Shown here piece after piece: positions 20,597 through 21,453 of a DNA stretch of 64,000 nt. Below the pieces are notes generated by a model, which did no database searches, was not told the origin of the DNA, and was given only the letters and a program-made list of their open reading frames with translations. The stretch comes from Akkermansiaceae bacterium (GTDB lineage Bacteria > Verrucomicrobiota > Verrucomicrobiia > Verrucomicrobiales > Akkermansiaceae), in contig CAIVKO010000114.1 of assembly GCA_903906515.1 (NCBI GenBank), positions 1 to 64,000 of the forward strand, in the 5' to 3' direction. The stretch's first letter is position 1. The number at the start of each line of letters is the position of its first letter. Both the position numbers and the translations under genes were made by a program.

Positions 20597-20718
20597 AGAA
20601 GGTGCCGCTCCCCTGTAAGCCGGATTGATCTCGCTCCGCTCGATCCACGCCAAATGCAGCCTCCTCCTCCGGAGGCCGGTTGAAAAAATGCTCGCGAACG
20701 CTCGCCCTGCGTTCTGTC
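20597..20718 (-). repeat. rnpB-tailed repeat unit 1 (distal)
   Basis: Read on the minus strand, the unit starts GACAGAACGCAGGGCGAGCG, contains a GC-rich hairpin (CCGGCCTCC/GGAGGAGGAGGC), then GAGCGAGATCAATCC, and ends in an exact 23-bp copy (20604-20626) of the rnpB 3' end. It is about 93% identical to unit 2. It has no protein-coding character. Confidence 0.85.
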
Positions 20719-20725
20719 CATATGA

Positions 20726-20847
20726 AGAAGGTGCCGCTCCCCTGTAAGCCGGATTGATCTCGCTCCGCTCGCTCCACGCGAAATGCGGCCTCCTCCTCCG
20801 GAGGCCGGTTTGTAGAATGCTCGCTAGCGCTCGCCCTGCGTTCTGTC
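20726..20847 (-). repeat. rnpB-tailed repeat unit 2 (proximal)
   Basis: It has the same organisation as unit 1 and begins 8 bp beyond the T-rich end of the native rnpB (minus-strand sense). Its terminal 23 bp (20733-20755) are identical to the native rnpB 3' end at 20860-20882. The copies of the 23-mer are spaced 127 and 129 bp apart. Confidence 0.85.
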
Positions 20848-20854
20848 AGGAGAA

Positions 20855-21255
20855 AAGGGGCCGCTCCCCTGTAAGCCGGATTCTGTCCGCTCCGGCATTC
20901 CGGAGCTGGACGGTCATTTCTCTCACCCCGCCGAGGCGGAGCGCCCCGCTTGCGCGGAGTGCGACTAATACCCGGAGATTTTTAGCGGACGGGCAGTCCT
21001 TCCCCTGTTCTGTCTTGCACCACGCGGGGTTTGCCGTGCCGCTCCGGTTACCCTCGGCGCGGTGGGCTCTTACCCCACCATTTCATCCTTACCTGTGCCC
21101 TTGCGGGCCATCGGCGGTATGTTTCCTGTTGCACTTTCCGTCCGGGTTCCTCGCGGTTCCCGTCCCCCATTTTCATGAGGCGCGTTGCCCTGTGGTGTCC
21201 GGACTTTCCTCAACCCCCGCTTGCGCGGAAATTGCGACCGTCCGGGGAGCGGCAA
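20855..21255 (-). ncRNA. rnpB: RNase P RNA, bacterial type A
   Basis: Catalytic RNA of RNase P, which removes tRNA 5' leaders. On the minus strand the P1 helix pairs GCCGCTCCCC (21253-21244) with GGGGAGCGGC (20869-20860). The conserved 5' P4 core GAGGAAAGTCCGGACACCAC lies near 21214-21195, and the conserved 3' core ACAGAATCCGGCTTA near 20889-20875. AAACCCCGCGTGGTGCAAG and the GGGTAAGAGCCCACC region also fit the type A specificity domain. The length of about 400 nt is typical. The exact ends are approximate. A T-rich stretch (CCCCTTTTCTCC) after P1 may be its processing or termination region. The 3' end is followed by two repeat units that carry copies of it. Confidence 0.93.
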
Positions 21256-21301: not shown

Positions 21302-21453
21302 GCGAAACGCAAAGATGCGGAGATCGCAGAGAAAAGCGCTGAGTTCATGGGAATCTGGAATTGGAACTGCATGAAAATCATTACATATTCGATGACAGGG
21401 ACTCCAATTTTTCTCCGCGAAATCCTCCGCGATCTCCGCATCTCTGCGTTTCG
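21302..21453. repeat. Palindromic intergenic element (MITE/REP-like)
   Basis: CGAAACGCAAAGATGCGGAG (from 21302) and the inverse copy ending near 21453 (CTCCGCATCTCTGCGTTTCG) form arms of about 30 bp with only a few mismatches, around a 70-90 bp centre. It lies upstream of the MFS gene and downstream of nothing coding. Sequences of this type (CGCAGAGATGCGGAG) are scattered in intergenic regions of many environmental bacteria. The element is non-coding and seems unrelated to the GGACCG family here. Confidence 0.7.

Follow-up and report, generated by a model that had tools for sequence, protein, structure and literature searches.

To our knowledge, tandem repeats built on the 3' ends of tRNA genes or of rnpB are so far an unexplained curiosity of E. 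coli. In strain K-12, three repeats are present behind rnpB and the RtT repeats are found at tyrT/tyrV. The rnpB repeats, reportedly three units of 113 bp according to the older literature, follow the intact gene in tandem; each of them closes with the greater part of the P4 3' strand plus the P1 3' strand, and the change in each copy occurs at the same place, around ACAGAA/CCCGG. The 178-bp repeats of tyrT/tyrV (RtT/RttR, RF00391) have the same layout and the same cut as the units described below. At tyrT, the gene end GGTTCG|AATCC..CCA is followed by a spacer with GGATGAGAA, by GGTTCG|, by a core with CGAGCGCCAGCGAG and GCGAAGCG, and by GAGT|AATCC..CCA. Two further kinds of systems have to be considered. 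The integrative elements and islands with att sites at tRNA or tmRNA 3' ends (tyrosine recombinases) share with our units the direct repeat of the gene 3' end, the restored gene and a boundary inside the RNA gene. REP/REPIN sequences (RAYT/Y1 transposases) and MITEs are, like our element, small, dispersed, hairpin-rich and non-coding, without long target duplication at array sites.

The window, i.e. the whole stretch of 64,000 nucleotides analysed here, belongs to a freshwater-type Akkermansiaceae bacterium and contains an rnpB gene which covers positions 1-367 of the 367 of the RF00010 model, a complete class A match. As the gene is on the minus strand, the segment 20597-20855 lies beyond its 3' end. 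In this segment, direct repeats of 123 nt (93% identity, start spacing 129) were detected, followed by a third tail copy at a spacing of 127; Tandem Repeats Finder described an array of period 129 with 2.3 copies and a score of 468, and two other short arrays in the 64 kb. The features are collected in Table 1. The three 23-bp tails are identical to one another, so that the two tandem units with exact copies of the rnpB 3' end announced in a preliminary description of this DNA were found as described. From the RF00010 alignment and the standard RNase P numbering, the tail, AATCCGGCTTACAGGGGAGCGGC, is the P4 3' strand followed by the P1 3' strand. The make-up given for the unit, a core followed by a tail, holds as a layout but is incomplete: the unit also includes a duplicate of the 6 nt that precede the tail in rnpB (GGACAG, or TGACAG in unit 1), and, judging from these motifs, the core seems to have been set into a second, truncated copy of the rnpB end, between GGACAG and AATCCGG. 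By analogy with the relatives G061 and G001 compared below, the most distal tail would be the displaced original end of rnpB. No gene was found within the 128-bp unit, and no terminator-like or promoter-like signal in the units of the window.

Table 1. Features of the rnpB locus and of the contig start (positions in the window).
Feature	Position	Strand	Evidence or remarks
rnpB, class A RNase P RNA	20856..21253	-	Rfam RF00010, 199.7 bits; intact, 3' end at 20856-20860
Proximal tail inside intact rnpB	20860..20882	-	AATCCGGCTTACAGGGGAGCGGC, P4 3' strand + P1 3' strand
Spacer and partial left-arm copy (TGACAG) ahead of core 1	20843..20859	-	sequence
Core E, copy 1 (AACGC...GATC)	20756..20842	-	model R1 match 20756-20848, 106 bits; training sequence, score expected
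Parts of core E, copy 1			hairpin 1 GCGAGC..GCGAGC; hairpin 2 with GGAGGA loop; 3' module
Exact copy of rnpB 3' end, closes unit 1	20733..20755	-	direct repeat
Spacer (ACCTTCTTCATAT, overlaps edge of tail) and left-arm copy GGACAG ahead of core 2	20714..20732	-	similar spacer in G001/G013
Core E, copy 2	20627..20713	-	model R1 match 20627-20719, 101 bits; training sequence, score expected
Exact copy of rnpB 3' end, closes unit 2	20604..20626	-	direct repeat
Member of the E family at contig start	57..155	+	left arm GGTTTG 57-62, core E 63-136, tail AATCCCGCCGCCCCGACCA 137-155

The window comes from a fragmented metagenome assembly of 265 contigs, and an array could be produced by misassembly, an objection already raised with the first description. 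This is exceedingly improbable, since the two cores differ from each other at several positions, homologous units with other flanks occur in three other, independent assemblies, and copies of the family are also carried by the single-contig genomes G004 and G077.

The rnpB 3' flanks that could be read in the genus (n=61) were compared. Fifty-seven had no unit, one unit was present in each of G001, G013 and G014, and the genome of the window (G000) was alone in having two; the series of empty, one-unit and multi-unit alleles that had been proposed as a check was therefore obtained. The same four carriers were returned by a pattern scan of all 73 genus genomes, which presupposes this exact P1 sequence. 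In the rnpB tree the carriers do not form one group, and its well-supported branches require no fewer than three changes. The 3' flanks of G061 and G001 are 91% identical over 1325 bp downstream, the unit being missing in G061. By this alignment G061 is the empty version of the G001/G013 site, but a gain in G001/G013 cannot be distinguished from a precise loss in G061. In G001, the native flank (ACTCCCTTTTT) comes directly behind the distal tail. Behind the proximal tail stands ACCTTCCCTCATGGACAG, similar to ACCTTCTTCATATGGACAG of the window, even though the flanks themselves are unrelated between these two genomes. The unit thus brought its own rnpB end, and a local duplication of the flank is no explanation. 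When G001 and G013 were compared for selection on the unit, the flanking spacer was as conserved as the unit itself.

These data bear on the simplest alternative, in which the rnpB 3' region was duplicated in tandem by slippage or unequal crossing-over and then diverged, without any mobile element. The tails are indeed direct repeats, the unit starts with a GGACAG copy next to the tail, and duplicated rnpB sequence (GATGAATGACTGTCCAC) is clearly present in the rnpB repeats of E. coli. Nevertheless, this explanation is already disfavoured and we hold it to be very unlikely: the spacer behind the proximal tail in G001/G013 is not local flank and is similar to that of another lineage, homologous cores exist at tRNAs, at secA and elsewhere, and the copied part begins at one and the same target nucleotide in every case.

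Some other tail matches in the genus were discarded. The second exact match in G009 is a chance occurrence inside an amylase-like gene, that in G002 belongs to a second, partial rnpB at a contig end, and in G008 a weak tail match, 1 kb downstream of rnpB, falls in what reads as coding sequence. The rnpB tail was not found in any viral contig.

A covariance model, R1, was built from five cores and used to search for copies away from rnpB. Such copies were detected in many of the 73 genus genomes, with E values down to 1e-12; the best match away from the training loci was in G018 (1.8e-12), and 36 copies were counted in G015 and 20 in G094 (E values up to 0.5). A pattern of the 3' module alone gave 59 matches in 13 genomes and none with the reversed control, and a scan of 388 genomes of the phylum added two genomes of another genus of the same family, with two copies each. 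The core, of 75-110 bp, is located behind tRNA-Ser, tRNA-Pro and tRNA-Lys, at secA, and at gene-free sites which are often inside simple repeats. Behind the tRNA-Lys of G193 it forms two tandem units. At the secA 3' end it is present in G015 and G017 and absent in eight other relatives read there. At these two secA loci (L279/L280), a copy of the last codons (AATGCTGCGGAAAGTGA) was noticed after the element, and G017 seems to hold a second, partial copy. No Rfam family matched core E in the window, in the G193 array (L267) or in the eight loci examined.

The window itself harbors a further member at positions 57-155, with an R1 score of 39.9 bits and a match to the 3' module pattern with 1 mismatch (0 expected). 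Its tail is identical to a tRNA-Pro-type tail in G077. As there is no tRNA in the window, the tRNA gene of this member would lie off the contig, which suggests that the assembly broke at this repeat. Two other arrangements were observed in passing: three successive copies behind tRNA-Pro in the single-contig genome G004 (L252, C1, 8673-9090), and head-to-tail bare cores with a period of 75, the joint GTC|AAAGC and no gene tail in G015 (L206, C79).

The tails are copies of tRNA-Ser, tRNA-Pro or rnpB 3' ends. In the tRNA cases with a clear match they start exactly after TTCG (T-loop TTCG|AAT), and at rnpB exactly after ACAG (ACAG|AAT). A tail copy scoring at least 12 was found upstream of 17 of the 66 copies checked; many of those without such a tail are short G015 forms at gene-free sites, and a few of the tail matches are themselves in simple repeats. 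Where copies lie inside simple arrays (L205, L211, L225), these arrays run on across the element without duplication, as site-specific recombination predicts. The arrangement typical of RtT, a unit between tRNA 3'-end copies that start in the T-loop after GGTTCG, is met by the tRNA-Ser and tRNA-Pro units and by tRNA-Lys of G193; the rnpB units of the window use the rnpB end instead of a tRNA end. Some of the features expected of an integrative element at tRNA or rnpB ends are also present: direct repeats of a gene 3' end flank the element, the gene is intact, and a relative has the empty site (G061 versus G001/G013).

The core had been described as structured. Covariation among relatives is in agreement with this, whereas the folding energy of the two single cores of the window is not unusual (z -0.5 and 0.1 versus shuffles), so that the term rests on the former and not on the latter. 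In hairpin 2, standard pairs make up 207 of 216; in 2000 shuffles of the 3' strands among copies they averaged 137 and never exceeded 164. Related sequences can inflate such a strand-shuffle test; still, single positions show as many as four different pair types, which favours a real stem. Its loop is GGAGGA or closely similar in 27/27 long forms, the search for long forms having itself used this loop. Hairpin 1 has a clear 6-bp stem in several tRNA copies, and in the rnpB copies it reads GCGAGC..GCGAGC, for which we infer that tandem G.A pairs are needed. Covariation is also seen in the final base pairs of the 3' module, where GGAC..GTC is matched by GGCC..GGC in other copies. The folded form may be either RNA or single-stranded DNA.

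The conserved GGAGGA loop and the strong covariation of hairpin 2 could also be those of a selected functional RNA or cis signal (processing, termination or regulation), the tail competing for P1/P4 pairing or serving as a decoy in RNase P RNA maturation, and one tyrT repeat is annotated in E. coli as a small RNA, RttR/RtT. We regard this as quite unlikely. The unit is absent in most relatives, E is present at unrelated genes and in simple repeats, and a mobile element may need conserved hairpins as well; besides the lack of terminator-like or promoter-like signals in the units, the single site that resembles a terminator lies across P1 of the rnpB gene and is not above chance. Alternative rnpB 3' ends or competing P1 strands, put forward as consequences of the array, remain possible, and there is no evidence on any effect on the RNase P RNA. 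By inference, a ribozyme using the distal tails directly would probably be impaired, since they lack the adjoining ACAGAA of J2/4.

Taken together, the allele series, the dispersed core and the gene end carried by the unit support the earlier proposal of a small element that inserts at, and regenerates, the 3' end of the RNA gene; it appears largely right, although movement was not shown. We consider it probable that the unit is a miniature, non-coding, non-autonomous, gene-restoring, site-specific integrative element of about 128 bp, for which no recombinase was found. It would consist of core E, with three hairpins, and a copy of the 3' end of the target gene. A short site, G|AA(T)CC, located in the T-loop of tRNAs and, in rnpB, between J2/4 and P4, would be where it enters through site-specific recombination. 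Because the element would bring a replacement 3' end, the gene would stay intact and its old end would be displaced downstream; arrays would result from a second insertion or from unequal exchange. A circular or single-stranded intermediate and a recombinase supplied in trans, most likely of the tyrosine type, are inferred. The constant left boundary, the restored gene ends, the empty allele and the absence of duplication in arrays fit such recombination, as far as sequence comparison goes. A DDE transposase or target-primed reverse transcription fits less well, since both would leave target duplications at the array sites, and the 15-25 bp tails at genes would then reflect a piece carried by the element rather than a staggered cut. 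A simple circle model does not account for the left-arm copy within the unit.

The search for the enzyme gave no candidate tied to E. Tyrosine recombinases (PF00589) were present in 14/14 genomes tested and Y1 transposases in 25/25, regardless of E copy number; both are present everywhere, and neither could be clearly linked to the copies as their mover. A tyrosine recombinase near E was seen only in G018 (1 and 2.7 kb) and perhaps at one of the many G015 copies, an adjacency that chance could give, and among the matches listed a Y1 gene lay within 2.5 kb of an E copy only in G077. Neither a circle nor an excision product was observed, nor were there identical recent copies at different genes.

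In G018, the integrase genes adjoin two units whose tRNA is not nearby, and in G179 two units at tRNA-Ser, separated by 4.65 kb, enclose three genes as if bracketing cargo (L266, C22, 5145-9900). Larger, cargo-bearing forms may thus exist. From the same two cases it could be argued that E and its tail are the remnant ends of larger islands, i.e. the scar or att region left by an integrative element of tRNA and rnpB ends after loss of its cargo. This is unlikely, as most copies have neither cargo nor integrase and intact cores of similar length are found at non-gene sites. If the unit is a miniature integrative element in its own right, it departs from the islands by its size (about 100 bp versus kilobases), by the absence of an integrase and by the fact that a single family fits several target genes, each with its own tail. 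It differs from REP/REPIN and MITEs by the gene-end copies and by the lack of any link found to Y1 genes.

The tyrT tails of E. coli start at the same T-loop position as the tRNA tails of E. When R1 was run on E. coli, its best full-length matches fell on three of the four RtT units; they kept the register but were weak (E values 0.03, 0.15 and 0.7). Conversely, RF00391, which scores 133-138 bits in E. coli itself, gave no match in the window segment 20560-20900 (E<=5), in the G193 array (E<=10) or in the eight loci (gathering threshold). As RF00391 has no match to E and R1 matches RtT only weakly, E is not filed as RtT, although, by its layout, it would work like the RtT and rnpB repeats. Unlike RtT, E belongs to another phylum and is dispersed, also at rnpB, secA and non-gene sites; unlike the units of the window, the E. 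coli rnpB units contain more upstream rnpB and a strong terminator, and their short core does not resemble E.

In a global scan for rnpB tail repeats, a Clostridia genome, Lelliottia, two Nevskia and Geothrix (L077, L080, L082, L085, L086) stood out by long identity of the tails, with a second tail copy about 107-135 bp after the rnpB 3' end and unrelated cores. The tail repeat at rnpB thus recurs across phyla. Several further candidates, for example L078, L079, L081, L084 and L088, share only the pattern and look like chance. It is conceivable, though doubtful, that the verrucomicrobial E, the E. coli RtT and rnpB repeats and those of Nevskia, Geothrix, Lelliottia and Clostridia form one widespread class of minimal, structure-based mobile elements, which would recognise a T-loop-like G|AAYCC site, carry a replacement for the gene end and perhaps move as folded single strands. 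Nothing relevant on rnpB repeats, RtT or interspersed repeats was found in the open-access literature, the only place where novelty was checked. Compared with the E. coli loci read here, what is new is the same layout in another phylum together with an empty allele, hairpins that covary and copies dispersed to unrelated genes. The idea of a mobile element of about 100 bp that restores its target gene thereby becomes directly testable, and the findings suggest how such an element could land in essential RNA genes without harming them.

Just upstream of rnpB, an inverted repeat was noticed at 21303-21453. It has no other copy in the window, and with its 41-nt arms, 83% complementary, it looks like an intergenic palindromic repeat.
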